Source: Bacteroidales bacterium
GTDB lineage: Bacteria; Bacteroidota; Bacteroidia; Bacteroidales; FEN-979
NCBI GenBank assembly: GCA_030681475.1
Contig: JAUXWT010000078.1
Coordinates: forward strand, 1-47,655
Length of the DNA stretch: 47,655 nt
Reading direction: 5' to 3'
The notes under the pieces are model-generated. The model had not been told where the DNA came from, did not search any database, and saw only the letters and a program-made list of their open reading frames with translations. Shown here piece by piece: positions 122-45,577 of the stretch. The position numbers were made by a program, and so were the translations under genes. The stretch's first letter is position 1. Each line of letters begins with the position of its first letter.

Positions 122-177
122 GTCACGTGTCATCCGTCACCTGTCACGTGTCACGCGTCACGTGTCACGCGTCACGT
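122..177. repeat. GTCACGN heptamer tandem array
   Basis: Eight consecutive 7-bp units: GTCACGT, GTCATCC, GTCACCT, GTCACGT, GTCACGC, GTCACGT, GTCACGC, GTCACGT. The array ends 5 nt from the stop codon of the minus-strand lipoprotein gene that follows. Together with the octamer array to its left it forms a composite that recurs in the same plus-strand order near 23000 and 39980. Confidence 0.92.
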
Positions 178-182
178 GTAAT

Positions 183-902
183 CTACTTTGCCTTATTCCC
201 GGGGTAAAAGAAATAATCAAGATCATACCCATTGAGGATCAATTCATCTCTGTTTTTTCGATAAAAATCCCGGATGGCTTCAACAGGAACCACTGCGTTC
301 AATCCATACTGGATATGGTCGCTTTTTCCAACGACGGCATCCCCCCGGTAGGCCATCCAATCCGGAGTTCGTTGCTGGTCCGTGGCTGGTTTAAGATACT
401 CTTCCCGGGTCGAATGCACAGTCTTCACCATCCCCAACAGTTCAAAATCCGGAATCCCGCTCCGTGTTGCAAGAATAATCCCTCCGCTGAATCCATGGTT
501 TAACAGCGCATCAATGGAAAAGTCGCCCATCGGCCGTTTTGGGGCAGGACTGGCAAGTCCCCTGGTCATTACCTGGTTGCCTAATGGAAAGCCAAATATG
601 TAAACAATACTTCCCCATCCAAGGTCACTTGCATAACCTGAATGATATTGGAGAGGTATTACAGTATCGGTGAGCATTTCGCACTTTTTTCCAAGGATGG
701 CGATATCGTTCGAAATATCAATAGCTGTTCCGGAAACAGTCTCGTTGGTTGAGATCACGCCCCAGGCTGCGTTTTTGGCAGGAAAATCGCTGGTGTACTT
801 GTCTTTAGCGGCGGTTCTGCTTTTTAAGGCGACTATCTTTTCTGCACACCCCCACAACAGGCAAAAGATGAAAATGGACAATATCGGCACGAACCTCTTC
901 AT
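183..902 (-). CDS. Lipoprotein with degenerate trypsin-like protease domain
   Basis: 239 residues. The N-terminus is a lipoprotein signal: MKR, a hydrophobic run, then lipobox LLWGC with Cys19, so the protein is probably anchored in a membrane after cleavage. The body resembles trypsin-like (S1/HtrA-type) domains. SNDIAIL matches the Asp-containing DIAVL strand, and GFSGG near residue 140 matches the GxSGG serine motif. The segment that should carry the catalytic histidine before the Asp strand is absent: VSGTAI runs directly into DISNDIAIL. The enzyme is therefore probably inactive, or has lost a block by deletion. It is a single gene with a tandem array just past its stop. The fold assignment is inference from short motifs. 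Confidence 0.6.
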   Translation of the reverse strand: MKRFVPILSIFIFCLLWGCAEKIVALKSRTAAKDKYTSDFPAKNAAWGVISTNETVSGTAIDISNDIAILGKKCEMLTDTVIPLQYHSGYASDLGWGSIVYIFGFPLGNQVMTRGLASPAPKRPMGDFSIDALLNHGFSGGIILATRSGIPDFELLGMVKTVHSTREEYLKPATDQQRTPDWMAYRGDAVVGKSDHIQYGLNAVVPVEAIRDFYRKNRDELILNGYDLDYFFYPGNKAK

Positions 903-929
903 GAAACGTTACTTTGCCGGGCAAACATT

Positions 930-1478
930 TCAGGCATATTTATTATATGAACATATTTCACCGGTCGTCTTTCTGATCTTGATCCTTACCTGTTCTTTGG
1001 CCGGATAACCCAAGGCAATAATCAACTCGACCCGTTTCTTTTTCGGAACCTCCAGTAACTGTTTCACCTTCTCCTCATCAAACCATCCCATGATGCAAGT
1101 ACCAAGTCCTTCTTCGGTTGCCTGTAAACAGAAATGTTCCACTGCTATGCCAACATCCATCAGGGTGTACGGTTTATCCTTCAGTACCGCGCCCAGCTTT
1201 GAAGTGAGGTTGGGGTCTTCGCGGACAACAGCCACCAGAATGGGTGCCTGCCTTGTAAAATGATTGAAACCCAGCAATTTCGATGTTGCTGCCTTAGCCA
1301 CTTTTTCTTTAAGGATGGGTTCATCAACGACAACCAGTTTCCATGGTTGAGAATTGCATGCAGAAGGGGCAAGCCTGACGGCTTCAATGCAGCGTTCCAG
1401 TTTCTCACGCGCTACCGGCCGGTCAGGATCATAGGCACGCACACTTTGCCGCTGTTGAATCAGATCAAGAAATTTCAT
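930..1478 (-). CDS. Nitroreductase family protein
   Basis: 182 residues from ATG at 1478. A longer frame opens at a TTG (1496), but that codon overlaps the promoter -7 element, so the ATG is preferred. The family uses FMN and NAD(P)H to reduce nitro or quinone groups in the cytoplasm. Family hallmarks: RQSVRAYDPDRPV near the N-terminus (FMN phosphate contact), APSACNSQPW around residue 40, and the C-terminal half GLGTCIMGWF...ALGYPA, which resembles the usual GxGxxxxG...GYP region. Length fits the small ~180-residue group. The physiological substrate cannot be told from sequence. Confidence 0.9.
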   Translation of the reverse strand: MKFLDLIQQRQSVRAYDPDRPVAREKLERCIEAVRLAPSACNSQPWKLVVVDEPILKEKVAKAATSKLLGFNHFTRQAPILVAVVREDPNLTSKLGAVLKDKPYTLMDVGIAVEHFCLQATEEGLGTCIMGWFDEEKVKQLLEVPKKKRVELIIALGYPAKEQVRIKIRKTTGEICSYNKYA

Positions 1479-1493
1479 ATATCGGTTTAATGG

Positions 1494-1525
1494 CAAAGGT
1501 AAACAGAAACCGTTGAAAATATCAA
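1494..1525 (-). promoter_or_regulatory. Bacteroidota-type promoter of the nitroreductase gene
   Basis: On the minus strand, TACCTTTG (1501-1494) matches the Bacteroidota -7 element TAnnTTTG. A TTTTTG whose TTG lies at 1525-1523 sits 21 nt upstream, close to the usual -33 spacing. The predicted transcript start is about 10 nt before the ATG at 1478, giving a very short leader. Confidence 0.5.
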
Positions 1526-1626
1526 AAAGCCGAAATTATCAACAACCTGAATTCATATCGTATTTTTTATTAATTTAGTTCAATAAAATTCAATCGTGAT
1601 TGTCGACAACAAAGTAATTGGTTACC

Positions 1627-11810: not shown

Positions 11811-11934
11811 CACAATAGTCACAGTAGGACACATAGAAAGTCACAGTAGGTTCATTTTGAAGTGTCGAAAACACGATCAGGCTGACACCAATATCTAATG
11901 TGTTTATCTACTGTGACCTACTGTGCCTATTGTG
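11811..11934. repeat. Long imperfect inverted repeat (CACAGTAGG family), copy 1
   Basis: The left arm 11811-11837 (CACAATAGTCACAGTAGGA...) pairs with the right arm 11908-11934, whose complement reads CACAATAGGCACAGTAGGT..., around a ~70-nt middle. The word CACAGTAGG also repeats within the left half. A second copy lies at 21037-21134. Here it separates the thiolase stop from the nitronate monooxygenase start. Confidence 0.8.
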
Positions 11935-29060: not shown

Positions 29061-29063
29061 AGT

Positions 29064-29091: not shown

Positions 29092-29135
29092 AAAACCAGT
29101 GCGACTACACAATCTCCAAAAACTCCATACTTTTC

Positions 29136-29180: not shown

Positions 29181-29184
29181 TACA

Positions 29185-29778: not shown

Positions 29779-29787
29779 TTATTTCTG

Positions 29788-29818
29788 TATTTTTGTTATT
29801 GATTGGGACTCAAAGGTA
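29788..29818. promoter_or_regulatory. Face-to-face promoters of LOG and AhpD-like genes
   Basis: CAAAGGTA (29811-29818) is TACCTTTG on the minus strand, 33 nt upstream of the LOG start. TATTTTTG (29788-29795) on the plus strand serves the AhpD-like gene. Both match TAnnTTTG; their predicted transcripts overlap across about 20-30 nt. Convincing -33 elements are not seen. Confidence 0.35.
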
Positions 29819-29862
29819 ATCAGAATCCATGGAGTGCCGGAACAAAAATAACAAATCTGCAA

Positions 29863-30462: not shown

Positions 30463-30516
30463 GTTTGAATTCACGCAAAGTTATATTCAACCCGATCAAG
30501 TAAAAACCCCATTCAG

Positions 30517-31491: not shown

Positions 31492-31498
31492 TTTTTCT

Positions 31499-31506
31499 AT
31501 TTTTGT
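31499..31506 (+). promoter_or_regulatory. -7 element (TATTTTTG) for the TlpA-DUF6029-Omp28 run
   Basis: TATTTTTG lies 21 nt before ATG 31528, matching TAnnTTTG, so the three genes may have their own promoter despite the close manA gene. No -33 element at standard spacing is seen. Confidence 0.35.
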
Positions 31507-31527
31507 GAACAGAAAAACAGCATCATA

Positions 31528-32049: not shown

Positions 32050-32091
32050 TAAGAAAGAATTGCGTTTTATCAACTTTATATATTATACACC

Positions 32092-33807: not shown

Positions 33808-33852
33808 TACGCCTGCCGGAATGAGTGACAAACCGAATAATTTGAAACAATT

Positions 33853-34719
33853 ATGAAAATAATCTCCAGGATATCCTTCATCATGCTTGTTGGAACACTT
33901 TTGTTCCATTCCTGCACGAAGGTCAGTGAACCTTATTTTACAGTTAAATCAGTCATCGTTGATACGACCAAACGGTCGGTATTGCTGGAGGATTATACGG
34001 GTCATCTCTGTGTCAACTGCGCTCCTGCGGCAGCCGTTGCAAGTACAATCCAGGAGTTGAATCATGGGCTGGTTTACGTAATCTCTGTTCATGCAGGTTC
34101 GTTTGCCAGGCCAAATCCTACAAGTTATCCTCCATACCTGGCGGCTGATTACAGGTGTGAAACCGGCAATGACTGGTTTGGTTACGGCGCTTTCAATATC
34201 GATGCAAATCCTAAGGGAATGGTTAACAGGCGGCCATTTAAAGGGCAAATCTCATTTGGCGCTTCCGACTGGAACCAGGCCGTTCAAGCGGCGGTTGAAT
34301 TACCCAAGATAGCCATCATGACCGTGAACAACACCTTTAACAATGGGAACAAAATGTTAGACTCAAAAGTTGACATTAAATTCCTGACCGGTTACACAGG
34401 CAAGGTGAATCTGACGGTATGTATCCTTGAAGACAGTATATACGGCGGACAATTGAATATAATTCCCCCTGATTCCATTCCCATTATAAAGAACTTCAGG
34501 TTTATGCATGTGCTGAGGGGCTCGCTCAACGGGAGTTTTGGTGAAGAAATATCAGTCAATCCTTCCCCAGGCGACTTAATCACCAAATCTTATTCCTTTG
34601 ATTTTACTGCGAATTCCTGGAAACCGGAACATTGCAATGTGATCGCATTTATCTCAGATGCCGACACCAGGGAGGTGTTGCATGTGGCTAAATCACAAAA
34701 CATATCATTGAAAAAGTAA
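33853..34719 (+). CDS. Omp28-related outer-membrane lipoprotein
   Basis: 288 residues, ATG 33853. The lipoprotein signal has lipobox LLFHSC (Cys22). The diagnostic Omp28 motif VLLEDYTGHLCVNCAPAA contains a CxxC in a thioredoxin-like first helix. VYVISVHAGSFARP and FNIDANPKGMVNR follow, as in the Omp28 family (Porphyromonas Omp28/fimbrial-like). The CxxC and the adjacent TlpA gene suggest, by inference, a surface or periplasmic redox pair. The C-terminal half is beta-rich without known motif. Confidence 0.9.
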   Translation: MKIISRISFIMLVGTLLFHSCTKVSEPYFTVKSVIVDTTKRSVLLEDYTGHLCVNCAPAAAVASTIQELNHGLVYVISVHAGSFARPNPTSYPPYLAADYRCETGNDWFGYGAFNIDANPKGMVNRRPFKGQISFGASDWNQAVQAAVELPKIAIMTVNNTFNNGNKMLDSKVDIKFLTGYTGKVNLTVCILEDSIYGGQLNIIPPDSIPIIKNFRFMHVLRGSLNGSFGEEISVNPSPGDLITKSYSFDFTANSWKPEHCNVIAFISDADTREVLHVAKSQNISLKK

Positions 34720-34744
34720 CCCGCCGAAGCGACACGGTCACAAT

Positions 34745-37288
34745 TTACCTCCTGACGATAATTTTTCCGGTTGTCACCGACGCTTTGCCTGCAATTTTAA
34801 GAAAGTAGATCCCATCGGGCAGCGTTGTCAGTTTAATGGTTTTATTTAACTGTCCGGTAAGGGAGATGTTCTTTTCGGAGTAAACAGTGGCGCCGATCAT
34901 GTCAAAAACGGTAAGTTCCAAAAGATCGGCCTGCGGAGATTTTAAATTCAGGGTAAAATATCCATTCGATGGATTGGGAAGAACCAAACAGGAGACTTGT
35001 TCATTCCTCTCTTCTGCGCTTGTCGGAAAATCAACTACAATATACCCGACGCTTAAAACACTATCGGATGAAAAACCATCTCCCACGATTAACTTCACAT
35101 CATAGGTTCCAATGGTTTCGTACAAGATGACCGGATTTTTTTCAATCGAAACGTCCGGTGTTCCGCCTGGAAAATGCCATTGCCAGGTGGTTGTATTCCC
35201 CAGGGAGGTGTCGGCAAAGGCGACAGAATTACCCGGAACAACCCTCTCGGGAACTCCTGTAAAACCGGCCACCACCGGAGGCGGTATGGCATGAATTACA
35301 ATGTAAGCCTGATATGGGATCCGGTTGTAGGCTGTGACCACCAGATGAATTGTATCATCAGCCATGGTTAATGCCGGAAATGAAAGCATTACGGTATCGT
35401 TCACCACAAGGCCTGTGGCGAGAATGGTGTCGGCAAGGGTTGCAGTTACCCTGGCGCCGCTGACATTACAATAGACACCCAACAAAGTATCGCTGACGTA
35501 AAGCATGGTGTCGTATTGGGCGGTGATCGGCTGCGGCACGGCAGTTCTGAGCATGATGGTCGGGTCGCCGAAAATGGTCCAGGTGTCTGCCATATTGGCG
35601 CCGTCGGTGCCATACGAATCGATCATTTTCATACATCCGTTGATCGATACGCCGGCAAAGGTACGTTTTATGTTATTCGAATCAGATTCAATGAGGATGT
35701 TGGTCATTGCATCCTGCCCTTCCATCGGAGAGTTCCAGCTTTGGTTGATGGTTGAGCCCAGGAAGGCAATTGCCCCGGTGGGCTGGCCGCCTTGAGTTGC
35801 CCGCAGCCATGCTTCGGCGAAACATGTGATTGAAGTGAAGTTTCCGTTTACACAAGCCACCGACCAGATGAACGGAAGTTTTCCGGCGTTGGTCAACTGG
35901 TTGACATTGTTATTGCTGAATCCGGATGTCGACCATGCCGTATTGCTGCCATGCCCGGTATAAAGGATAAGGCTGGCCCCGTTGTTCACCTCTGTTGCGA
36001 CCATGGGGGGCGATGGGTTTCCGGGGGCATCATTGCCTCCCTGGGAACCATCAAAGAGTTCGGGATTCATGGTGTATGTATAGCCTTTCAGCTGGGTCTG
36101 TTGATTTCTTACATGCTGATAATCATATTCATTGTCATCGCCCGGACCCTGGTCTGACGCTATGCCGATCACGGTTGTAAACCAGTCATCGGTCAGAAAC
36201 TGAGGATTCATCTCATAATCCAGCGTTCGCTGTACCTGTGTCTGCACCTGGGCGATATTTTCGGCGGAGAACCTTCCGATGAAGGCATCGGCATAATGGT
36301 CGTTCCCGACAATATATCCATAGGCATTGTCGGAGGGGCCTCCCAAACCGCTGCCGGTATTGGTGGGGATCTGCGGTGCGTCACCAACCAGCAGGACATG
36401 GGTCAACCCTTTGGTATTGTAATAATTCGCAATAAATGACCTGATCTGGGCTGCTGTAGAACCAACAGAGTCCTTGTGAAGCATTTCAGTCTGATAACCT
36501 TCCGAGCGTTTCCAGTTCACATAAGGTTCCATGGCACTCATAAAGGGACCGTAACAGATCACCAGCAAATTCCCATACTCACTCAAAGGGATGTAGGCCA
36601 TGGCATCGAAATTTATGAACTGGCGCTGCAAAACCGGCAGAAAGTCCTGGGGCATTTTTTTAATGTTGAGAGGCGTTGGCAGTGGATTATTCCCGGCTTC
36701 ACTCGTTTTAAACAACTCAATTGTCATGTTGTAGTAAACACGAAGGATTTTTGAGACCGGATTGTACTGAAAGGGATAAGCAATAAGGGTTTGCCCGCGT
36801 ACATCCCGGATGATATAGGGTTCGCGTGTGTCAGAAAGCGATCCGGGATAAAAATTATCCACGGAATAGGGGGCTCCGAACGAGTAAGGCACGGTTGAGG
36901 GATCGATGTCGCGCATGATCACGCCCTTGGATGGGGCTATCATCATTCCCGGATAATCTTTATATTCCGAAGAAACTATCCGGACGCTCATGCCGGCCAG
37001 GTCAGGAATTACCAGTGATACCGTTAACTTGGGCAAATCAGGCGCTCCGGCTTCCAGGATGGGGGTTGATTTACCAACCTCAACAGAAAAAGCCGGGCCA
37101 TTTGGCGTTTGCACCTCTTGCAGGGTAAAACCATCCAGGTTGAAATGAAGGGTGGACCGGTCGATGGTTGAAGAGACCAGACTGATTTTTGCAGGTGCAG
37201 GTAACTGATTGCTGATGTTAACCCAGTTGCCGGTAAACCCGGTCACCGACAGGGAAAACATAATGAACAGTACATAGACTTTGCGCAT
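34745..37288 (-). CDS. Gingipain-like C25 cysteine protease, T9SS-targeted
   Basis: 847 residues from ATG 37288; the frame remains open to 37399 but the signal peptide MRKVYVLFIMFSLSVTGF fixes the start. A propeptide-like N-terminus (residues ~30-230) precedes the C25 catalytic domain: LLVICYGPFMSAMEPYVNWK, GLTHVLLVGDAPQIPT, catalytic His in LILYTGHGSNTAW and catalytic Cys in WSVACVNGNF. An Ig-like region, a PKD domain (WQWHFPGGTPDVSIEKNP) and a type A sorting domain (CLVLPNPSNGYFTL, TVFDMIGATVYSE, LPDGIYFLKI) follow. The gene follows the LolC/E-like gene at 103 nt. Confidence 0.95.
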   Translation of the reverse strand: MRKVYVLFIMFSLSVTGFTGNWVNISNQLPAPAKISLVSSTIDRSTLHFNLDGFTLQEVQTPNGPAFSVEVGKSTPILEAGAPDLPKLTVSLVIPDLAGMSVRIVSSEYKDYPGMMIAPSKGVIMRDIDPSTVPYSFGAPYSVDNFYPGSLSDTREPYIIRDVRGQTLIAYPFQYNPVSKILRVYYNMTIELFKTSEAGNNPLPTPLNIKKMPQDFLPVLQRQFINFDAMAYIPLSEYGNLLVICYGPFMSAMEPYVNWKRSEGYQTEMLHKDSVGSTAAQIRSFIANYYNTKGLTHVLLVGDAPQIPTNTGSGLGGPSDNAYGYIVGNDHYADAFIGRFSAENIAQVQTQVQRTLDYEMNPQFLTDDWFTTVIGIASDQGPGDDNEYDYQHVRNQQTQLKGYTYTMNPELFDGSQGGNDAPGNPSPPMVATEVNNGASLILYTGHGSNTAWSTSGFSNNNVNQLTNAGKLPFIWSVACVNGNFTSITCFAEAWLRATQGGQPTGAIAFLGSTINQSWNSPMEGQDAMTNILIESDSNNIKRTFAGVSINGCMKMIDSYGTDGANMADTWTIFGDPTIMLRTAVPQPITAQYDTMLYVSDTLLGVYCNVSGARVTATLADTILATGLVVNDTVMLSFPALTMADDTIHLVVTAYNRIPYQAYIVIHAIPPPVVAGFTGVPERVVPGNSVAFADTSLGNTTTWQWHFPGGTPDVSIEKNPVILYETIGTYDVKLIVGDGFSSDSVLSVGYIVVDFPTSAEERNEQVSCLVLPNPSNGYFTLNLKSPQADLLELTVFDMIGATVYSEKNISLTGQLNKTIKLTTLPDGIYFLKIAGKASVTTGKIIVRR

Positions 37289-37391
37289 AGGGTTCAAGAT
37301 TAAATCGATACATGTGTTAATTCCATAACAAAGGTAAATTTTTAATTCATTCCCGGATGTTTTTTTTATCCATTCAGTAAGTTTTTTCTGG

Positions 37392-38627
37392 TCAGTCAAG
37401 TTTTATTTCTCCCACATGCACCTTTTTGATGTTATATACCGGGTACCAGGCGGCCAGGAATCCGATGGACAAAACTGTGAAAAAAACAATTATGAAATCT
37501 TTTAGCTGCATGTACACCGGGTACGCGTTCACAACAAAACTGCTGTCGGCAGACCCCAACCGGATCAGGCCGAAACGGATCTGAAGCCAGCAAATAACTG
37601 CACCGAGGATCAGTCCCGTAATGGCTCCGATAAAGGAGATCAGCATACCTTCCAGGAGAAAAATGCGACGGATCAGATGCTGACTTGCACCCATACTCTG
37701 CATCACAGCAATATCCTTTTTCTTGTCGAGGATGAGCATGGAAAGGGTTCCGATCACGTTAAAACTGGCGATGACAAGGATCAGTGTCAGGATCAGGAAG
37801 ATATAATTCTTTTCAGAAACCATGATCTTATAGAGTATCTCTTGTTGCTGATATCGGTTTTTTACGGTAAACCCTTCGCCTGCCACCCGTTCAATCTGTT
37901 TTTGCACTGCAGTCAGATCAGTACTTTTTGCAACATCAAGCTCAAGGGCTGTTAGTTCATCACCATACTCAAGCAGACTTTTCACGAAACGCAATGGCAG
38001 GATCGCGTATTTAACATCGTACTCATACTGTACCTGAAAAAACCCGGAAGGAAATATGATCTCAGCATTAAAGGCGTTTTCAAACCCGCCCGAAAAGCTG
38101 GCGTCACGGCGGGGAACGTAAACGGAGATCGGGTGGACATAATCCAGCAGGTTGGCATTCAGGGAACCTGCTACCCCGTAGCCCAATATGGCATAATCAA
38201 TATCCCCATCCTGTAAAAGAAATTGTCCTTCTGCCATCATGGTATCCAGCCCGCTGATCTCATTGAATGATTCACCGACCCCTTTGATGGTTACAATGGC
38301 TTGATTGTCTTTGTATTTCATCAATGCATCCTCCTCAATGACCTGTGTGACATGCAACACACCGGGAATTTTTTGCAACCGGTCAAGAGGAAAAGAACTC
38401 AGGTTAAAGGTCTTGCCATGATTCGGCGTGATTTGAATGGTTGAGTTGAATGAACTGAACAGCGAAACCACCAGCCGGTCAAACCCGTTAAATACCGAAA
38501 GGACAATAATCAGCGCCATGGCTCCGATCGCCACACCAACAACCGATATCCCGGAAATAATGTTGATGATGTTATGCGATTTCTTTGAAACCAGGTACCG
38601 GCGGGCGATATAGAAAGGAAAGTTCAT
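37392..38627 (-). CDS. LolC/LolE-like ABC transporter permease
   Basis: 411 residues from ATG 38627; an upstream TTG (38645) would overlap the methyltransferase stop. The topology is one N-terminal helix (INIISGISVVGVAIGAMALIIVLSVFNGFD), a large periplasmic MacB-like domain, then three helices with the FtsX domain (IGTLSMLILDKKKDIAVMQSMGAS, LEGMLISFIGAITGLILGA). LolC/E permeases extract lipoproteins from the inner membrane. No LolD ATPase is in the window. It is third in the minus-strand run rbfA, methyltransferase, permease; the gap to the methyltransferase is 8 nt. Confidence 0.92.
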   Translation of the reverse strand: MNFPFYIARRYLVSKKSHNIINIISGISVVGVAIGAMALIIVLSVFNGFDRLVVSLFSSFNSTIQITPNHGKTFNLSSFPLDRLQKIPGVLHVTQVIEEDALMKYKDNQAIVTIKGVGESFNEISGLDTMMAEGQFLLQDGDIDYAILGYGVAGSLNANLLDYVHPISVYVPRRDASFSGGFENAFNAEIIFPSGFFQVQYEYDVKYAILPLRFVKSLLEYGDELTALELDVAKSTDLTAVQKQIERVAGEGFTVKNRYQQQEILYKIMVSEKNYIFLILTLILVIASFNVIGTLSMLILDKKKDIAVMQSMGASQHLIRRIFLLEGMLISFIGAITGLILGAVICWLQIRFGLIRLGSADSSFVVNAYPVYMQLKDFIIVFFTVLSIGFLAAWYPVYNIKKVHVGEIKLD

Positions 38628-38635
38628 TATTTTTT

Positions 38636-39460
38636 TTATTTCCAAGCCTTCACAATCAGTCCAGTCCCGGTTTTATGTTGGATCCTTGTATCCAGCCAAT
38701 TGCAGAAAAAAGCGACAGGATAGGTTATCAGGTAATATAATGGCAGCAGAATGAAAAAGAGTTTTGTAGTGTTGAGCATCAGGATCGGGTATTTCATCGA
38801 AAGTCTCCAGGCGATCTTCCCCGGTGTTCCATAGGTAAAACGGGCTTCAGTCTTGTTAAATCCGGCGCGTTTTAATTTATCCTGGATGTCCTGGATGTTA
38901 TATCCGTCGCGGACATGTTCGTCGATGAATGATTCTCCCTCGTCATGATCATGAACATCAGAGCCCCCCTGATCCGAAGGGGTGGAGATCAGCAACATCC
39001 CATCCTGTGTCAAAGAATCAAAAAAATTACGGAACACGGCTTCGTCATCGCTGATGTGCTCCATCACATCAACCGAAAGGATAAGGTTAAAATGGTTGGG
39101 ACTGGAAAATAGTGTAAGATCTGCTTTTTCGAAAAGCACGTTTTTTCTGCTGATTTTACTGAAAAAGGCATTGCAGTCTTCAATCTGTTCATCTTTCACA
39201 TCAACAGCATCAACAAACCATACAGGGGAAAGGCCGGAAAGAAAATAGGAGTATTGCCCGAATCCGGAGCCGGCATCCAGGATGATCCGCTTGGTTAAAC
39301 GATCGGCGGGTTTTATCTGGCCAGCCCATATCCTGATCTCTTTCCGCACATGCCATGCACGAAGCAGCAAAAGATCAAGGAGTTTGTAAAACAATATCCG
39401 GAGGAAGGGGGTCTTATTGAACACTTTTCCAAGTGTTCTTTTTATCGGATCATACTTCAT
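38636..39460 (-). CDS. Class I SAM-dependent methyltransferase
   Basis: 274 residues from ATG 39460. A longer frame runs through the upstream 14-mer repeat, giving the artefact HFSFCIFHFD, and is rejected. SAM motif I is IILDAGSGFGQYSYFLS; FNLILSVDVMEHISDDEAVF and GMLLISTPSDQGGSDVHD follow. A hydrophobic C-terminal segment (LFFILLPLYYLITYPVAFF) suggests membrane association. The substrate is unknown; the LolC/E-like neighbour hints at envelope, but that is inference. Confidence 0.9.
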   Translation of the reverse strand: MKYDPIKRTLGKVFNKTPFLRILFYKLLDLLLLRAWHVRKEIRIWAGQIKPADRLTKRIILDAGSGFGQYSYFLSGLSPVWFVDAVDVKDEQIEDCNAFFSKISRKNVLFEKADLTLFSSPNHFNLILSVDVMEHISDDEAVFRNFFDSLTQDGMLLISTPSDQGGSDVHDHDEGESFIDEHVRDGYNIQDIQDKLKRAGFNKTEARFTYGTPGKIAWRLSMKYPILMLNTTKLFFILLPLYYLITYPVAFFCNWLDTRIQHKTGTGLIVKAWK

Positions 39461-39469
39461 AAAAATATC

Positions 39470-39497
39470 AAAATGAAAAATGCAAAATGAAAAATGC
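39470..39497. repeat. Duplicated 14-mer before the methyltransferase start codon
   Basis: AAAATGAAAAATGC occurs twice head to tail, 9 nt upstream of the minus-strand ATG at 39460. The arrangement is the same as at 29064-29091 but with a different word. Confidence 0.9.
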
Positions 39498-39541
39498 AAA
39501 AATAGAGCAACTCATCAACCTGCGAAATACTTTAGCGCACA

Positions 39542-39583
39542 TGTCCGCCTGTCCACCTGTCCACCTGTCCCCCCGTCCCCTGT
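39542..39583. repeat. CTGTCCAC/CTGTCCCC octamer array after rbfA
   Basis: CTGTCCAC, CTGTCCAC, CTGTCCCC and CCGTCCCC fill the stretch that abuts the rbfA stop codon (minus strand, stop at 39584-39586). It is the complementary form of the octamer at 2-93. Confidence 0.85.
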
Positions 39584-39919
39584 TCACTTCAGCAAATTAT
39601 CAATATTCTCAATATAATCCAGTGAATCATCCAGGAAAAACTGAAGTTCAGGCATGACACGCAACTGATTGTGCACACGCAGCGCCAGATAATGACGTAC
39701 CTCCCTGCCGTGATGGCGGATTTTATCAAGCAAAACCTGCTTGTCAGTCGTAATAAACAAGCTCAGATGGACTTTCGCAATGGAAAGGTCTTTGCTAACT
39801 TGTACCTTGGTCACAGTGATCAAAGCGTTTTCGAACAGGTTTCTGCTCTCTTGCTGGAAGATGATTCCTAATTCCTTCTGGATCAGGCGCGAAATTTTTA
39901 GCTGACGGGTTGATTCCAT
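39584..39919 (-). CDS. rbfA: Ribosome-binding factor A
   Basis: 111 residues from ATG 39919; the frame extends to 40006 but the extra part is translated repeat array. RbfA binds the immature 30S subunit and helps 16S rRNA 5'-end maturation. Family hallmarks: TRQLKISRLIQKELG at the N-terminus, ITVTKVQVSKDLSIAKVHLS (KH-like strand with the conserved VxVSxDL), RHYLALRVHNQLRVMPEL and FFLDDSLDY.ENID. Complete and of normal length. First of the run with the methyltransferase and LolC/E-like genes. Confidence 0.96.
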   Translation of the reverse strand: MESTRQLKISRLIQKELGIIFQQESRNLFENALITVTKVQVSKDLSIAKVHLSLFITTDKQVLLDKIRHHGREVRHYLALRVHNQLRVMPELQFFLDDSLDYIENIDNLLK

Positions 39920-39940
39920 GGGGCAAAGGTAGTAAATATT

Positions 39941-40013
39941 TCTGTGGACGGGGGGACAAGGGGACGGGGGGACAAAGGGACGGTGACCACACTTGTCACT
40001 TGTCACGCGTCAC
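39941..40013. repeat. Composite octamer/heptamer array with an embedded stop codon
   Basis: GGGGACAA/GGGGACGG words (about 39949-39982) are followed by GTCACTT, GTCACGC, GTCACG heptamers (39995-40013). The stop of the outer-membrane protein gene (TGA, 39998-39996) and its last four codons (VTRDK) are inside the heptamer part. Confidence 0.85.
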
Positions 40014-40997
40014 GATTTCACCCCCGCGGTTACTTTTCCCAAGATCGAAGTCACGTGTAAGGCTTACTGCAACTGAGTACGCAGGAGTCATCTGCTTGCC
40101 TTTGTAAAACTTGTATAAAGGGAGATCATAGATCGCTGTGAGATTCCATTTTCCGGCAATGCTATAGCTCAATTGCGGGGAGACCGTGAAGAGGTAATAT
40201 CCGGAATTTATCACCCTGGAATCCCCTTTTTCATTCTTGTTTGCAAAATCCCGGTCATTGGTTTTCCACTCACTGCGGAATTGCAGGATGCCAAAGAAAT
40301 ATTTTACGATCTTCTTGGAAACGAAGATGGAATTGAGCAGAATGTTGCCGTACTTGTAGTTACTCTTGTCAGTAAAGTTATAATCATACCGGTTGATGGA
40401 GAACAATCGAAGAGTGATCGCCGGAAATCCTTTGTTGAAAAACAACATTTCGGATATTCCGAACGCATTGGTTGAGGGCTGAACATCCCGGTTCAATTGT
40501 ACGCCGTCAATAATCTGTGGGTTGGTTGAGAATGGAAACCTGAGACCAAACCCGGTGGTAAACTCAATTTGCCGGGCAGGTTTTACGATGGTTCCATATT
40601 TAACGGAAAATGTTGCGTTCGACAAACCATTTCCCTGGGTTTGATAATTGATATTCTTAAAATTCTGGGTTTTATCAAAGTAGTACCCGGCATCAATCTC
40701 AACGGTCAGCCGTTTTGTAATTCCGTATGCAAGGGCAAGTCCGGCAAAATTAAAACTGGAGTTAGAAAGCTGAACATTCTCTGTGGTCTTATGATCATTT
40801 TCGAAATAGGTATCGGAATAACTGTGCCTGAAATAGGTGATCGCACGAAGGTGATTTTTTTCAAGAACGCCAACATACACGGAGGCGCCTACCGGAGATC
40901 CTGTAGAGCAACACTGTGCCATTGATGAAAAGGATGAGGACAGGAAAACGGCGCCTGTAATGAGAACGAACGCTATCCTAATTATGCGACCTGACAA
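39996..40997 (-). CDS. Predicted outer-membrane beta-barrel protein
   Basis: About 333 residues if the TTG at 40997 is the start. The frame is open to an ATG at 41114, but that would overlap the lipoprotein gene and give an unlikely N-terminus. The segment IIRIAFVLITGAVFLSSSFSSMAQ is a clear signal peptide. The mature protein starts CCSTGSPVG and continues with alternating aromatic strands (HLRAITYFRHSYSDTYFEND, VEIDAGYYF, QIEFTTGFGLRFPF), typical of transporter-like barrels. The C-terminus runs into a repeat array. It overlaps the upstream lipoprotein gene by ~20 nt, suggesting coupled translation. Function unknown. Confidence 0.7.
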   Translation of the reverse strand: MSGRIIRIAFVLITGAVFLSSSFSSMAQCCSTGSPVGASVYVGVLEKNHLRAITYFRHSYSDTYFENDHKTTENVQLSNSSFNFAGLALAYGITKRLTVEIDAGYYFDKTQNFKNINYQTQGNGLSNATFSVKYGTIVKPARQIEFTTGFGLRFPFSTNPQIIDGVQLNRDVQPSTNAFGISEMLFFNKGFPAITLRLFSINRYDYNFTDKSNYKYGNILLNSIFVSKKIVKYFFGILQFRSEWKTNDRDFANKNEKGDSRVINSGYYLFTVSPQLSYSIAGKWNLTAIYDLPLYKFYKGKQMTPAYSVAVSLTRDFDLGKSNRGGEIVTRDK

Positions 40998-41325
40998 TGA
41001 TTGATTTTGTTTCCGAGTGGTTGTATTGATCAGATACCTGGCAGGTGATGGTGAATTTATCCTGGTGACAAACGGTCCATTGCACGCTGGCGCCACTTCC
41101 GATAAATGTGCCATACGATGCAGTCCATTTGTAGGTCAATCCATCACCGGTCGCACCGGCAGTAACGGTGGTGATGTCGTTTACCTTGATCACCGTATCA
41201 GCGGCAACCAGGCTGCTGAACCTGAAATTCTCACCAGGTCCGGGATCCGGAGTGGTTTTGCTTTTTGAGCAGGATGCCAGGATAACAACGGTAACCAGGC
41301 AAACAATTGTCAAGGCTTTTTTCAT
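40978..41325 (-). CDS. Small Ig/PKD-like lipoprotein
   Basis: 115 residues, ATG 41325. The lipoprotein signal is MKKALTIVCLVTVVILASCSK (lipobox ILASC). A proline/acid linker leads to one Ig- or PKD-like beta domain (ADTVIKVNDITTVTAGATG, LTYKWTASYGTFIGSG, KFTITCQVSDQYNHSETKSI). Such domains bind partners or sugars. The gene precedes the outer-membrane protein gene and overlaps it by about 20 nt, so the two are probably one unit. Partner function is inference. Confidence 0.85.
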   Translation of the reverse strand: MKKALTIVCLVTVVILASCSKSKTTPDPGPGENFRFSSLVAADTVIKVNDITTVTAGATGDGLTYKWTASYGTFIGSGASVQWTVCHQDKFTITCQVSDQYNHSETKSIIVRSHN

Positions 41326-41348
41326 GGTGTTCAGGATTTTTTAGCAGA

Positions 41349-41356
41349 CAAATATA
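41349..41356 (-). promoter_or_regulatory. -7 element (TATATTTG) for the lipoprotein gene
   Basis: CAAATATA on the plus strand is TATATTTG on the minus strand, 24 nt upstream of the ATG at 41325, matching TAnnTTTG. Confidence 0.4.
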
Positions 41357-41418
41357 CATATATAATTAACTGTGAACATCGTTTTTTTTTCGTAATTAAT
41401 TATTTAATGTTAAACCCC

Positions 41419-41426
41419 TATCTTTG
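41419..41426 (+). promoter_or_regulatory. -7 element (TATCTTTG) nearly abutting the exporter start
   Basis: TATCTTTG ends 5 nt before ATG 41432. With the usual 4-6 nt from this box to the transcript start, the mRNA would begin at or next to the A of the ATG, that is, leaderless or nearly so. A -33 TTG at normal spacing is not seen. Confidence 0.45.
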
Positions 41427-41431
41427 CTGCA

Positions 41432-43252
41432 ATGAAAAGTTTTTTTAAAATTCTTCGTTACGCAGGGCCTTACTGGGTTTATGCCATGCTTAACGTGGTG
41501 TTTAATATCCTTTCCGTAATCTTTTCATTGGTCTCGTTCGGATTGTTCATCCCTGTTTTACAGATGCTTTTCCACCAGATGACCATTCCGGCTTCGGCCC
41601 CTCCGATGCGGTTGGAGATTGATGCGCTCAGGGATAATTTTTATTACTACACCGGCCAAGTGATAGAGCGGTACGGCAATGAAAAAATGCTGGTTTATAT
41701 CGGGATTACGATCATCATTTTGTATTTCCTGAAAAACCTGTTCAGGTATCTGGCCATGTATTTTCTTGCAGTAGTTCGGAATGGCGTGGTAAAGGATCTT
41801 CGGAATGACCTCTACCTGAAAATTCTGATCCTGCCATTGTCATATTTTAACGAAAAGCGCAAGGGAGATATCATCGCCCGGATGACCACCGATGTGCAGG
41901 AGGTCGAATGGTCCATTATGAGTTCACTGGAGATGGCATTCCGCGATCCGATCACGATGATAACATACATCATCACCTTGTTTATTATCAGTCCGGCGCT
42001 TACTGTTTTTGTCCTGGTGCTCCTGCCAGTCAGTGGATTTATCATCGGCAGGATCGGAAAAAGCCTGAAACGGACATCAGACAAAGGCCAGTACAAGATG
42101 GGCGTACTTCTTTCGATGATCGAAGAGACGATCTCAGGGCTGCGCATCATCAAAGCATTCAACGCCATCAGTTTCGCCGACAAGCGGTTCCGTCATACGA
42201 ACCAGGAATACAACCGGCTGATGGTACGGCTTTACCGTAAACGTGACCTGGCCTCCCCCTTAAGCGAATTCCTGAGCGCCTGTGTGGTCACCATCGTGTT
42301 GTGGTATGGCGGAAAACTTGTCTTCACTCCCGGGAACTTTCTGGATGCGGCAGCTTTCCTCGTTTACCTGGGGATATTCTCCCAACTGATGCCTCCCGCC
42401 AAATCCATCACCCAGGCTTTTTACAACATTCAGAAGGGGGCTGCATCGGTGGACCGGATTGAACAAATATTGAAGGCGCCCGAAGTCATTGAGGAAAAGA
42501 CCGATGCGCTTACAAAAAAAGATTTCAACACCGGGATTGAATACCGGAATGTCAATTTTTCATATGCTGATGAACCGGTTCTGAAACAGATCGACCTGAC
42601 GATCCATAAAGGCAAAACCATCGCTGTGGTCGGACCTTCCGGAGGGGGAAAATCAACACTCGTTGATCTGCTGCCCCGTTTTTATGATTGCGCAGGTGGC
42701 GGCATTTTCATCGACGGGATTGATATCCGTGACCTCGTAATCCGCGATTTGCGCGGTTTGATGGGCATTGTATCCCAGGAAACCATTCTGTTTAACGACA
42801 CGGTATTCAACAACATCGCTTTTGGCATGGAAAACGTCAGTGAGGCCGATGTAATTGGTGCTGCCAAGGTTGCCAATGCCCATGAGTTTATTGAGAAAAT
42901 GCCGCAGGGATATGCGACCAACATCGGCGACCGTGGAACAAAACTTTCAGGCGGACAGCGTCAGCGGCTCAGCATTGCCCGTGCCGTACTGAGGAATCCG
43001 CCGATTCTCATTCTTGATGAAGCTACCTCTGCCCTGGATACAGAATCGGAACGGTTGGTACAACAAGCCCTCGAGAATCTCATGCGTCACCGTACCTCGA
43101 TCGTCATCGCCCACCGCCTCTCCACCATCCAGTTTGCCGATGAAATTATCGTGTTGCGGCATGGGAAACTGGTCGAACGCGGCACCCATAACGTCCTTCT
43201 GGAGAAGAACGGCGTTTACAGAAAGTTGTATGAATTGCAATCCTTCGTTTAA
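41432..43252 (+). CDS. ABC exporter, fused permease and ATPase (MsbA-like)
   Basis: 606 residues, ATG 41432. A half-transporter that would act as a dimer in the inner membrane. The N-terminal half has about six helices (GPYWVYAMLNVVFNILSVIF, MLVYIGITIIILYFL, TVFVLVLLPVSGFIIG). The nucleotide-binding domain has Walker A VGPSGGGKSTL, Q-loop SQETILFND, signature LSGGQRQRLSIARA, Walker B ILILDEATSALD and H-loop IAHRLSTI. Subfamily and length suggest an MsbA-type lipid or lipopolysaccharide flippase, but drug or peptide export is possible. Single gene; an ATTTCGCN array starts right after its stop. Confidence 0.95.
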   Translation: MKSFFKILRYAGPYWVYAMLNVVFNILSVIFSLVSFGLFIPVLQMLFHQMTIPASAPPMRLEIDALRDNFYYYTGQVIERYGNEKMLVYIGITIIILYFLKNLFRYLAMYFLAVVRNGVVKDLRNDLYLKILILPLSYFNEKRKGDIIARMTTDVQEVEWSIMSSLEMAFRDPITMITYIITLFIISPALTVFVLVLLPVSGFIIGRIGKSLKRTSDKGQYKMGVLLSMIEETISGLRIIKAFNAISFADKRFRHTNQEYNRLMVRLYRKRDLASPLSEFLSACVVTIVLWYGGKLVFTPGNFLDAAAFLVYLGIFSQLMPPAKSITQAFYNIQKGAASVDRIEQILKAPEVIEEKTDALTKKDFNTGIEYRNVNFSYADEPVLKQIDLTIHKGKTIAVVGPSGGGKSTLVDLLPRFYDCAGGGIFIDGIDIRDLVIRDLRGLMGIVSQETILFNDTVFNNIAFGMENVSEADVIGAAKVANAHEFIEKMPQGYATNIGDRGTKLSGGQRQRLSIARAVLRNPPILILDEATSALDTESERLVQQALENLMRHRTSIVIAHRLSTIQFADEIIVLRHGKLVERGTHNVLLEKNGVYRKLYELQSFV

Positions 43253-43276
43253 ATTTCGCTATTTCGCCATTTCGCT
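43253..43276. repeat. ATTTCGCN octamer array at the exporter stop codon
   Basis: ATTTCGCT, ATTTCGCC, ATTTCGCT follow the TAA (43250-43252) with no spacer. The convergent carboxypeptidase gene ends 6 nt later. Confidence 0.85.
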
Positions 43277-43281
43277 TCCGT

Positions 43282-44130
43282 TCAAATTTCCGCCATACTG
43301 ATCATCACATCTTCCATTTTCTTCTTCATCAATTTAACCCTGCAATCATAATCGTTGACGATCAGTGAAAAGATGAGTTGCCTTCCGGTTACGGTGACAA
43401 CATAACCGGCGAAACTTTTTACCTTGCCGATGGTTCCTGTTTTTGCATGCACGCGTCCTTCTGCCGCACTGCCCTTCATGGCCTTATGTAAGGTACCAGT
43501 AAGTCCGGCAAGAGGAAGCGATTCATAGAATACATCGAAATAGGGGGAGGTCCGCATTGCGTAAAGGGCGTCAACCAATTGCTTAGGGGAGATCGCGTTG
43601 TTACGCGACAGCCCATTGCCATCATAAAAGTTCATTCCCTCGGTATCCACGCCTTTGGTGGACCAGAAATCAAGTATGGCCTTGGCCCCGGCCGCAGTAG
43701 TATGGGTTTGGTAAACCTTCCCGCCGATCTTCCTGAGCAGTTTTGAAGAGCGCCAGTTGACACTCATCTGGTTGGTGACCGTGACCTCGGGAATGACCTG
43801 TTTTCCAAAATATTCCAGAGCGGCGCCTGTTACAAAGATTTTCAGCGTTGAGGCAGGGATCATGGGTTTTTTGGCATGGTAATCAGCCACGATAACAGGA
43901 TTCTTGTTTGTTACATCCACGACCAGATATCCAAGGGAGGCTTTTTGAAGCAATGGGTCATTCTGAAGTAACTGCAATGCCTGAAGCATGGTATCGTACC
44001 TTGGTTGAGGCTCCAGTTTCGCAAGTCCGGGTATCTCTTTCTGTGCATTTGATCTTGATTTGTTATTCTGGCAGGCAAACAATAATGGGAACAGGATCAG
44101 CAGCGAAATAAAGAAACTTCTTTTATGCAT
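43282..44130 (-). CDS. Compact D-alanyl-D-alanine carboxypeptidase (PBP4/S13-like)
   Basis: 282 residues, ATG 44130. Probable lipoprotein: MHKRSFFISLLILFPLLFAC, Cys20. Penicillin-binding catalytic motifs are in order: SxxK in MIPASTLKIFV (about 90), SxN in GNGLSRNNAIS (about 178), KTG in VHAKTGTIGKVKSFAGY (about 230). Order and context are those of PBP4/DacB (peptidase S13). However, the large insert domains between SxxK and SxN that bring the family to 450-500 residues are missing; only ~90 residues separate the motifs. It should trim or cut peptidoglycan stems in the periplasm. Converges with the exporter gene. Confidence 0.88.
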   Translation of the reverse strand: MHKRSFFISLLILFPLLFACQNNKSRSNAQKEIPGLAKLEPQPRYDTMLQALQLLQNDPLLQKASLGYLVVDVTNKNPVIVADYHAKKPMIPASTLKIFVTGAALEYFGKQVIPEVTVTNQMSVNWRSSKLLRKIGGKVYQTHTTAAGAKAILDFWSTKGVDTEGMNFYDGNGLSRNNAISPKQLVDALYAMRTSPYFDVFYESLPLAGLTGTLHKAMKGSAAEGRVHAKTGTIGKVKSFAGYVVTVTGRQLIFSLIVNDYDCRVKLMKKKMEDVMISMAEI

Positions 44131-44262
44131 GAACTGGATTTACAAATATTTGCCAAATATCGGAAAAAAAAATTGCAGGTGACAATAAATCTACCAATTC
44201 AATAAAAGTTGCTTCAACAGTTTATCCTGAGAAGATGCTTGTACCCCAATACCCCTTTACAA

Positions 44263-44550
44263 CTACGCGGGTTTCAGCGAATAATCTTTTTTCAGAAGCC
44301 CCTTCTCCATGCACTCCTGAATATCTGAGAGACGAAAGTACACCTTCCTTCCCAGTTTACTGTAAGGAAGGTCTCCTGAATTTCTTAAGTCGGTCAAAGT
44401 CCGCAAGGAAACGGAAAGTTTTTCGGAAGCTTCATGGGACTCGATCCAGTCAAATCCGCCTGCTGATGCCCGGAGCAGCTTAAATTCAATGCGAGTCAGA
44501 CTGTTGAAGATCTCTTCCATCATCTTTTCAGTTTGAAGTTGGGTTTTCAT
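44263..44550 (-). CDS. HTH_17 (excisionase-like) DNA-binding protein
   Basis: 95 residues from ATG 44550; the frame opens upstream at 44610 without a good start. After a helical N-terminus (TEKMMEEIFNSLTRIEFKLL), the MerR/excisionase-type winged helix reads WIESHEASEKLSVSLRTLTD, then LRNSGDLPYSKLGRKVYF and RLSDIQECMEKG. In Bacteroidota such proteins are usually encoded on conjugative transposons or phages near the integrase. Here no integrase or mobilisation gene is visible, so it may be an orphan of a lost element or a host regulator. Confidence 0.88.
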   Translation of the reverse strand: MKTQLQTEKMMEEIFNSLTRIEFKLLRASAGGFDWIESHEASEKLSVSLRTLTDLRNSGDLPYSKLGRKVYFRLSDIQECMEKGLLKKDYSLKPA

Positions 44551-44798
44551 AGCGTGAATATTAATTGGTTTATATTGCTTAATCGGACTTGGGTACAAAA
44601 GGTAATACATGAAAAGTGGTTTTTTTATTAACTTTTAACATTTTTTAACATTTCTTCATATTTGCTGTTAAATTTTTAATTGATTTAGCTCAATCATACC
44701 AGTGAAGTTAAAATATCCTTTGAATGCTTTTCGTGATAGGATTATCATGACTTTCGAGTATGTAGTGTTAATACGGGTGGCCAAGGTATTGCTCCACG

Positions 44799-44968
44799 CG
44801 CTCCGTAGGAGCGGAATTTCGGTAGTAGCATGATCACATTTGGGAACAATTCGCTCCGTAGGTGCGAAATTATTTTCCAGGAAATCAAAACAAAACAAAT
44901 TGCGCACCTACGGAGCGCTTGATCGGGGCGGGTGCATACGTCTACCAATATTTGGCTCCTACGGAGCC
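44799..44968. repeat. Palindromic GCTCC-GTA-GGAGC repeat cluster
   Basis: Four palindromes lie in 170 bp: CGCTCCGTAGGAGCG (44799-44813), CGCTCCGTAGGTGCG (44852-44866), GCGCACCTACGGAGCGC (44902-44918) and GGCTCCTACGGAGCC (44954-44968). The second and third are inverted copies with AATT flanks and could fold into one long hairpin. Flanking words GGTAGTAGC and TCTACCAATATTTGGC fit a dispersed Bacteroidota intergenic repeat of the form CTACC.ATATTT.GCTCCTACGGAGC that I recall. The surrounding gap 44551-45246 has no gene I can support; 45101-45128 also has AAGTCTGTTGC duplicated. Confidence 0.85.
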
Positions 44969-45246
44969 GGGAAGGTTTATTAATAAACAATATCTGCTAT
45001 ATAGGTGGGAACTTGCAAAATCCAATTCGCCTGGTACAATTGTGCTTCAATCAATAAGATTTTTACTTTCCTCCAGACACCTTTCCTGCGAGGCTCATTC
45101 AAGTCTGTTGCAAGTCTGTTGCAAGTGTCCTTCGTCCTTCTTTATCTCGGTTAAATGCAAACAATACAGGCAGTGTAATGACTTAATTTAGCTAAATATT
45201 GTATTTATAATGACAAAATTATTATACATGTAAAAATATTGTCAAT

Positions 45247-45426
45247 ATGAAAATTGCCAAACGTGAACTTCTCAATCTGATTGAAGAAAAAGGACAATAG
45301 TTATCAGCCTTTGAGATCAAAAGGGGCCCCCGTGCGGTGCGCATCCCTGTTGCCTTTCAGAAGGCCTATCCCGAAGCGACTTCCCAGACGATATCCAAGC
45401 AGAATTACCTCGAGTTTATCACATAG
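45247..45426 (+). pseudogene. Mini-gene interrupted by an in-frame TAG
   Basis: ATG 45247 begins MKIAKRELLNLIEEKGQ, then TAG (45298-45300). The same frame continues LSAFEIKRGPRAVRIPVAFQ...SKQNYLEFIT to TAG 45424-45426. Composition on both sides of the stop looks coding and the frame is maintained, so this reads as a 59-residue protein with a single nonsense change (CAG, AAG or TGG to TAG). Suppression or two separate peptides are alternatives. The family is not recognised. A CAGTCCC array begins 4 nt after the final stop. Confidence 0.45.
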
Positions 45427-45430
45427 ATGC

Positions 45431-45577
45431 TGTCCCCCAGTCCCCAGTCCCCAGTCCCCAGTCCTCAGTCCCCAGTCCTCAGTCCCCAGTCCTCAGTCCT
45501 CAGTCCCCAGTCCCCTCGTCCCCCTGTCCCCTGTCCGCCTGTCCGCTTGTCCCCCTGTCCCCCTGTCCCCCAGTCTC
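45431..45577. repeat. CAGTCCC heptamer and CTGTCCCC octamer array
   Basis: Heptamers CAGTCCC and CAGTCCT alternate for about eleven units (45438-45514). They are followed by CTGTCCCC, CTGTCCGC and CTTGTCCC-type octamers to 45577, the complement of the 2-93 array. Confidence 0.9.

Follow-up and report, generated by a model that had tools for sequence, protein, structure and literature searches.

The STRR repeats of filamentous cyanobacteria are repeated words scattered between genes, with words and hosts that differ from those described here, and REP/RAYT elements combine a palindrome of 20–40 bp with a REP-associated transposase. According to Rehm et al. (2015; PMC4692102), the GGGAATC and GGGGA(C/T)T heptamers of Xanthomonas and Nostoc, a single G-rich type, show the same strand polarity as the arrays reported below. 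TAACTGA direct repeats are described from Beggiatoaceae, Cyanobacteria and some Bacteroidetes in the account of MacGregor (2015; PMC4679880), in which the forward repeats give stop codons in all three frames and other heptamer repeats are noted in gaps of some Bacteroidetes. Here, we describe arrays of head-to-tail words between the genes of an uncultured Bacteroidales bacterium; the window is the whole stretch of 47 655 nucleotides that was analysed.

Sequence sets

Genes were called with our own hexamer caller, for which stops are exact once the frame is right and starts are approximate. The larger counts come from five congeneric genomes and from two further sets of loci. The near named set (L042–L057) comprises 16 of the 17 loci with an exporter identity of at least 84% over the whole exporter, L041 being left out; L064, with a partial exporter match (89%), was placed in the other set. 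L052 of the near named set and contig C48 of genome G013 are both 61 794 long and are thus probably one contig, so that the sets are not wholly independent.

Arrays in the window

TRF rows with a period of 5–15 and a score of at least 33 that fall outside called genes gave 15 gap arrays in the window, and nine further such rows lie inside called genes. The arrays are short (∼20–150 bp by TRF) and are given without strand. A sequence-only reading of this DNA had listed seven genes as ending at or in an array, and six of these sites hold. A GTCACGN array (122–179; TRF and raw sequence) lies 4 bp from the stop at 183 of an unassigned minus-strand ORF, previously read as a lipoprotein; the GGGGACGG array at 2–88 (TRF) has its nearest stop 95 bp off. 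The TAG stop of the permease (22947–22949) is inside a AGGTAGCG array (22944–22976; TRF and raw sequence), and this gap has a GTCACGN array (23013–23033) near its other end, 27 bp short of the start at 23060. At the stop (29185) of the LOG-family gene is an array of CTGCATTGC (sense AATGCAGGC; 29135–29187), the main TRF row of which (29135–29178) is 7 bp off the stop, while a row of 27 bp period extends to 29187. The rbfA stop (39584) is covered by a CACCTGTC array (39538–39587; TRF and raw sequence). The stop of the outer-membrane protein (OMP) at 39996 lies inside a GTCACTT/GTCACGC array (39990–40014), the TRF row of which (39990–40006) scores only 34, and a GGGGACAA/GGACGGGGGGACAAAG array (39946–39983; gap row 39952–39981) is found between this stop and the rbfA start. 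Finally, three copies of ATTTCGCN (43253–43276) stand directly 3' of the exporter stop (43252) in a convergent gap.

The seventh site, a 'mini-gene' thought to end at 45426, fails: there is an in-frame TAG at 45298–45300, and the piece after it has no convincing relative among the fetched loci (best E 0.58). The CCCCAGT array here (45435–45536), followed by CTGTCCNC words to 45577, lies in a long divergent gap with no supported gene end. Nor do the arrays all touch 3' gene ends, as had been proposed; of the 15, six have a called stop no more than 10 bp away, two have a start at such a distance and seven are near neither. The earlier list had left out gap arrays with no stop at their edge, two of them close to starts: a AAAATTCAAAAATC array (29064–29095) in the gap of the LOG stop, 4 bp from the start at 29060, and a CAAAATGAAAAATG array (39469–39503) in the gap of the rbfA-stop array, 9 bp from the start at 39460. 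Further gap arrays away from stops are at 11908–11934, 44633–44653 and 45100–45126 (TRF). No Rfam or tRNA match was obtained anywhere in the window.

Abundance and orthologous gaps

In 847 410 bp of the genome there are 141 mainly intergenic arrays scoring at least 40, compared with a mean of 4.8 in five gap-wise dinucleotide shuffles. Although the sequence between called genes amounts to 73 241 of the 847 410 bp, 139 of 198 arrays overlap such a gap. The period is 7–9 in 90 of the 141 intergenic arrays and is not a multiple of 3 in 122. The three-copy GTCACGN and ATTTCGCN words have 40 and 79 matches in the genome, respectively, with none for the reversed controls; for CTGTCCNC this control is invalid, as the reversed pattern matched as often (23 versus 21). 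GTCACGN is also present in viral contigs (24 stretches).

The rbfA gap is 6–7 bp long in seven of 25 co-linear orthologs (L065, L066, L068–L070, L073 and L074, all more distant) and 77–229 bp long in the 11 orthologs with arrays, where the words mostly differ. Arrays occupy the permease gap in nine of 13 orthologs, again mostly with different words, and the gap measures 6, 14 and 28 bp in three array-free orthologs. At the LOG stop, arrays of the AATGCAG type occur in five of 16 orthologs in addition to the window; this recurrence across congeners could reflect a local constraint rather than drift.

Position relative to stops and starts

Among the 248 gap arrays of the five congeneric genomes (1.65 Mb), 93 have a stop and 48 a start within 10 bp (17 have both). 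Of the 169 arrays in co-directional gaps, 70 overlap the stop or come within 10 bp of it, whereas placement within the gaps predicts 46.7 ± 4.8; 40 are start-adjacent (expected 47.3 ± 5.0). Measuring array-to-stop distances, as the sequence-only reading had suggested, thus bears out a bias, but 124 of the 248 arrays are near neither edge. For single arrays that lie entirely within their gap the stop-adjacent number is 21 of 62 (expected 17.5 ± 2.5), with 5 versus 2.3 and 7 versus 3.6 in the two other sets; the sum is 33 versus 23.4 for three sets of which two share locus L052. The bias is weak at TRF scores of at least 60 (24 of 59 versus 21.1 ± 2.9). Co-directional gaps of at least 60 bp (n = 120) leave a median of 13.5 bp free of arrays next to the stop and 33.5 bp next to the start. 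A pure start-side buffer fails as the cause of the excess while multi-array gaps are kept, as the excess stays with a buffer of 30 bp (20 versus 10.0 ± 2.7) or 60 bp (15 versus 8.0 ± 2.1); with one wholly inside array per gap and a 30 bp buffer it is gone (7 versus 6.6 ± 2.2). A small, mild residual preference for stops remains.

The clearest stop-specific signal among array positions is the crossing of the stop itself. An array crosses the stop in 44 of 249 array–stop pairs and the start in 13 of 247 array–start pairs (p = 1.6 × 10⁻⁵); the corresponding values in the two further sets are 14/87 versus 2/79 and 15/84 versus 2/82. Thirty arrays extend into a gene by 4 bp or more (those without G–C skew being dropped); their unit has a sense-strand stop codon in 25 cases and an antisense one in four, which indicates that the array itself became the stop of the gene. 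The window OMP is a direct example of an invading array recruited as a stop, the repeat having rewritten the C-terminus of the protein: its last residues, VTRDK, are coded by the array (a GTGAC word), whereas among nine OMP relatives six share the tail LGxK-P...P..I(K/N/R), three stop earlier and none ends in VTRDK. A congeneric permease (L129) likewise ends in VTRDA, coded by a GTGAC word. Stop recruitment would account for the striking pattern of repeats that begin at stop codons.

Proposed explanation

We consider it probable (roughly 0.65) that the arrays are dispersed short tandem repeats that arise or expand in short gaps lineage by lineage, with edges that come to lie at stops by three routes. 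Coding sequence would be the first thing that an array cannot overwrite, some ancestral gaps being only a few base pairs long. Where an array does cut into a gene end, it would survive mostly when a stop codon is present on its sense strand; because the period is seldom a multiple of 3, a single such codon comes round in every frame and the array becomes the stop. Arrays that cross a start would be removed by selection, and on this side a leader or promoter often separates the array from the gene. The expansion was presumably slippage-like, with selection as the probable sorting force. Taken together, the gap comparisons, the crossing asymmetry and the array-supplied stops point to insertions or expansions that are specific to lineages and delimited by the flanking genes, and a process aimed at stops is unneeded. 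The earlier suggestion of a process that seeds or tolerates repeats at stops therefore survives in its second half, tolerance up to the stop, and exact seeding can be dispensed with.

Strand polarity

Slippage-like expansion with selection, although the best explanation, leaves the strand polarity of the arrays unaccounted for. In gaps of <400 bp the G-rich strand runs 5' to 3' away from the nearer gene in 136 of 192 arrays, and in 55 of 67 and 50 of 66 in the further sets; arrays that have no G–C skew or lie equally far from the two edges are excluded from these counts, as are, where stated, gaps of at least 400 bp. If each word is counted a single time per genome, the result is 85 versus 39, with seven ties. 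In co-directional gaps the G-rich strand is the sense strand in 48 of 63 arrays within 15 bp after a stop and the antisense strand in 22 of 32 within 15 bp before a start. The polarity is imperfect, at about 70–80%. It is high in convergent gaps (26/33, 14/15 and 5/6 in the three sets) and weakest in divergent gaps (16/26); it does not reach significance when only the 41 most distant loci are counted (17/25, p = 0.11) and is only 42/68 for lone non-crossing arrays of the five-genome pool (p = 0.068). The binomial p-values assume independent arrays, and recurring words and multi-array gaps violate this assumption. Gaps with several arrays have the order G-rich then C-rich far more often than the reverse (30 versus 4, 13 versus 0 and 7 versus 1), with two of a kind in 18, 5 and 5. 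The ten words found on both sides of gaps give 20 G-rich and eight C-rich arrays on the left and one G-rich and 25 C-rich on the right; AAATGGTG and ACAGGCGG are the two that do not flip. The words at the two ends of a gap usually differ (24 of 27).

A polarity known for the G-rich heptamers of Xanthomonas and Nostoc thus extends to many unrelated words, and quadruplex-based accounts are insufficient here. The unit lacks GGG/CCC in 156 of the 192 polar arrays and polarity is kept in 109 of these, which rejects quadruplex selection as its cause. A hairpin or snap-back origin can likewise be set aside as the general case, left and right words being complementary in three of 27 gaps (1.4 expected).

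Selection acting at both edges of a gap is a possible cause, if a doubtful one, of both the polarity and the contact with stops: sense stop codons (T plus two purines) would favour words with a purine- or G-rich sense strand at gene ends, and leaders poor in G would favour C-rich sense words ahead of starts. The 25 of 30 crossing arrays with sense stops fit this, as do array-free gaps, which show a slight tendency in this direction at starts (719 versus 602) and, when convergent, one in purine skew (174 versus 128). However, the G–C skew of array-free DNA after stops points in the other direction (443 versus 579), and polarity is kept in 33 of 45 start-edge units without ATG/GTG and in 24 of 32 stop-edge arrays with no stop codon on either strand of the unit, so that stop supply is not the whole story. 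Avoidance of Rho sites is rejected as a cause, as it should not act in convergent gaps, where polarity is high.

Alternatively, a strand-directed, telomere-like process might add words to DNA 3' ends that face the gap, such as those left by breaks or nicks; joining of two healed ends would give the G-rich-then-C-rich order with different words on each side. The polarity in all three sets, its persistence in units without GGG/CCC, the order within gaps, the flipping of most both-side words and the difference between end words all agree with such a process, but we think it unlikely overall. The imperfect polarity, notably in divergent gaps, at distant loci and for lone arrays, counts against it, and one candidate enzyme, a reverse transcriptase, is rejected as the array maker because RVT_1 matches do not track array abundance: 16 of 19 genomes of the genus match, but G013 (the densest sample) and G011, both of which have arrays, do not. 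Its specific form, in which a 3' end is extended from each flanking gene with G-rich words, healed and joined, so that orientation would record the direction of growth whatever the word, is in our estimate quite improbable. The origin of the arrays does become testable, as close strain pairs can show whether growth has a direction.

We regard it as very unlikely that the arrays function as RNA elements at 3' ends (terminators, stabilizers or binding sites), a function that the sequence-only reading had also raised. Their position just after stops would suit such a role and one of seven array RNAs folds well compared with shuffles (z = −3.01), but the other six show no such advantage (z = −1.13 to 1.56), the words at the two ends of a gap are seldom complementary (the three of 27 given above), no terminator-like site (a G+C-rich stem and T run) falls on an array in a scan of 28000–47655, many orthologous gaps have no array and half of the gap arrays are near no gene edge. 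Assembly artefacts are scarcely credible: short-read assemblers can misassemble repeats and the named relatives are MAGs, but separate assemblies from different sampling sites (judged from their titles) have the same kind of array at the same sites, and the window arrays are short.

Comparison with known repeat systems

The arrays are dispersed intergenic short tandem repeats with imperfect copies, of the same general kind as STRR and heptamer repeats. They share with the repeats of Rehm et al. (PMC4692102) the class polarity, G-rich sense after stops and antisense before starts (48/63 and 22/32 here). As characterized in that paper, those repeats are one G-rich, quadruplex-forming word type with a four-unit preference; here there are many words, 156 of 192 units lack GGG/CCC, and the words differ between related species at one site. 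The TAACTGA repeats (PMC4679880), like the present arrays, are intergenic heptamers, some of which lie over the stop of the upstream gene; unlike them, they are described as one word that is found mainly just upstream of starts in the index genome. The LTRR repeats of filamentous cyanobacteria (PMC2408588), as reported, are also words scattered between genes, although the words and hosts differ. The tandem repeats of Borgs are set apart, in the description given (PMC9879509), by perfect units of 18–21 nt, by their location on archaeal extrachromosomal elements and by often lying in frame inside ORFs; like the arrays here, they are fast-evolving and independently arising, and some start inside the end of an ORF.

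Array abundance and word distribution

The window corresponds to contig C25 in a genome of 4.24 Mb and 111 contigs, and the sample taken from this genome covers 847,410 bp (799,755 bp elsewhere in the genome plus the window). TRF recovered short-period arrays at the sites that the sequence-only reading had picked out, and over the whole sample it found 141 mainly intergenic arrays (score at least 40, period 5–15), compared with a mean of 4.8 in five gap-wise dinucleotide shuffles. Co-directional gaps hold 2.32 arrays per kilobase of gap, convergent gaps 1.86 and divergent gaps 1.14. The window genes flanked by arrays include an amino acid permease (PF13520/PF13906), a LOG-type protein (PF03641), RbfA (PF02033) and an ABC exporter (PF00664/PF00005); the Pfam search gave no match for the first ORF or for the outer-membrane protein (OMP).

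Three-copy GTCACGN occurs 40 times and ATTTCGCN 79 times in the genome, with zero occurrences of either reversed control. Across 31 genomes (this one, 18 of the genus and 12 from other families of the order), GTCACGN is present in ten (counts range from 0 to 266) and ATTTCGCN in 13, every one inside the genus. CTGTCCNC was found in this genome only among 296 drawn across the phylum, a draw without other congeners and with an uninformative reversed control. GTCACGN arrays also occur in viral-class contigs (24 stretches, L205–L228); viral contig IMGVR_UViG_3300044712_001751 is represented by three such stretches and by four listed matches. A different dispersed element occupies window positions 44690–44980 (ATACCAGTGAAGTTAA, then palindromic CTCCGTAGGAG words), and ATACCAGTGAAGTTAACATAT and GCGCTCC lie downstream of the permease stop in the fetched locus L128.

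Contact with stop codons

Among window gap arrays scoring at least 33, 6/15 have a called stop no more than 10 bp away and 2/15 a start. In the pooled set (five genomes, 1.65 Mb, 248 gap arrays), 76 arrays have a stop but no start within 10 bp, 31 a start but no stop, and 17 have both. In co-directional gaps, 70 of 169 arrays are at stops, against 46.7 ± 4.8 under random same-gap placement, and 40 are at starts, against 47.3 ± 5.0. The stop count is 45/103 at a TRF score of at least 50 (32.6 ± 3.8 expected), 24/59 at a score of at least 60 (21.1 ± 2.9) and 21/62 for arrays that are alone in and wholly within their gap (17.5 ± 2.5). The claim that all arrays touch 3′ gene ends does not hold: stops show an excess over random placement, but 124 of the 248 pooled arrays have neither a stop nor a start within 10 bp. 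The longest array, of CCCCAGT words, has no supported adjoining stop, because the small frame directly before it (45247–45426), previously read as a mini-gene, is interrupted by an in-frame TAG (45298–45300) and its later piece has no convincing match among the fetched loci. This piece has a weak likeness (12 residues, 75%, E 0.58) to the viral-collection contig L224.

The clearest stop-specific signal is crossing: arrays overlap the stop in 44/249 array–stop pairs and the start in 13/247 array–start pairs. This was replicated around relatives of the exporter (14/87 stops versus 2/79 starts; 15/84 versus 2/82), for which 80 loci were kept, labelled mostly as Bacteroidales or Bacteroidetes MAGs with some others. 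Where arrays extend at least 4 bp into the gene, a stop codon is present in sense in 25/30 and antisense in 4/30; for arrays 6–15 bp past the stop, the unit has one in 6/18 and 4/18, respectively. The window OMP stop lies inside an array of GTGAC words that also encodes the terminal VTRDK; of the nine relatives shown, six share a tail of the LGKKQP...P..IK type and the other three have earlier stops, and the VTRDK ending is absent from all nine. The permease of the congener L129 ends in VTRDA, likewise encoded by a GTGAC word. The stop codon therefore comes from the array itself, and this is the pattern that the sequence-only reading had noted at 22947 (permease) and 39996 (OMP).

Turnover at orthologous sites

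The permease 3′ gap carries arrays in nine of 13 co-linear orthologs, six starting within 10 nt of the stop, with words of GCGGACAG, AAACGGTA, GGGTGAAC, CGTAAAT, ATGTGATG, GTTCAAG and GTCACG types; three orthologs without arrays have gaps of 6, 14 and 28 bp. The LOG 3′ gap carries them in 10/16 orthologs, eight within 10 nt of the stop and five (L142, L144, L152, L156 and L157) with AATGCAG-type words as in the window; other sites switch words freely. Arrays occupy the rbfA 3′ gap in 11/25 orthologs (gaps of 77–229 bp), only four starting within 10 nt of the stop, and this gap is 6–7 bp in seven distant orthologs. Both co-linear orthologs found for the OMP lack arrays in the 3′ gap. Comparison of these loci indicates that the arrays are additions that make gaps longer; given an ancestral gap of 6 bp, an array can only sit beside the stop. 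One record, L057 (SACF01000010.1), is titled Alphaproteobacteria, yet encodes Bacteroidales orthologs and has an rbfA gap near-identical to that of L055; it is probably a mislabelled MAG.

Strand polarity

In gaps below 400 bp, 136/192 arrays have a G-rich strand that points, read 5′ to 3′, away from whichever gene is nearer (71/106, 13/16, 6/10, 41/52 and 5/8 by genome). Within 15 bp of an edge the figures are 48/63 at co-directional stops, 22/32 at co-directional starts, 20/25 in convergent gaps and 6/10 at divergent starts. Random segments of array-free gaps do not follow this rule in G–C skew (1162 versus 1181); their purine skew leans slightly the same way (1280 versus 1200), more strongly in convergent gaps (174 versus 128). 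The polarity is kept in units without GGG/CCC (109/156), at stop edges in units without stop codons on either strand (24/32) and at start edges in units without ATG/GTG (33/45), although units with ATG/GTG give 20/34. Ten words found on both sides sum to 20 G-rich and eight C-rich on the left and one and 25 on the right, two not flipping; the first and last arrays of multi-array gaps are G-then-C in 30, the reverse in four, GG in six and CC in 12. The polarity recurs in 16 near loci (55/67) and 63 other Bacteroidota loci (50/66), the 41 most distant of which alone give 17/25 (p 0.11); within the pool, arrays that are single and do not cross a gene edge give just 42/68. Some period-10 words in long gaps break the rule (CTGTGAACC/CACAGAGAAC, CTTCGTGTAA). 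The 10-bp words TCTGTGAACC/CACAGAGAAC and CTTCGTGTAA/CACGAAGCTC lack G-then-C order in the long gaps C65:13979–14445, C65:61310–61820 and C94:32804–33508 of the genome's own contigs, and are perhaps a second kind of array.

Interpretation and precedents

We favour, with a probability of roughly 0.65, a reading in which arrays would expand lineage by lineage in unconstrained gaps, coding sequence would bound the expansion and some arrays would be recruited as gene stops. The polarity requires more than expansion and stop recruitment. Two kinds of selection, one for each gap edge, are a tentative source of it; array growth directed out of each edge is an improbable one, and slightly more doubtful still in its stricter statement. 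The 3′-end RNA function proposed earlier is unlikely, as the folding of seven array RNAs (six no better than shuffles) and a terminator scan of positions 28000–47655 speak against it.

Among the matches listed from the open-licence literature, there was no word-independent polarity, stop-supply test or per-site word turnover in one genus. Contact with stops and polarity are already precedented: Rehm et al. (2015; PMC4692102) place G-rich heptamers of two Xanthomonas and one Nostoc on the coding strand near or over stops and, in mirror position, upstream of starts, and MacGregor (2015; PMC4679880) describes TAACTGA arrays, some covering stops.
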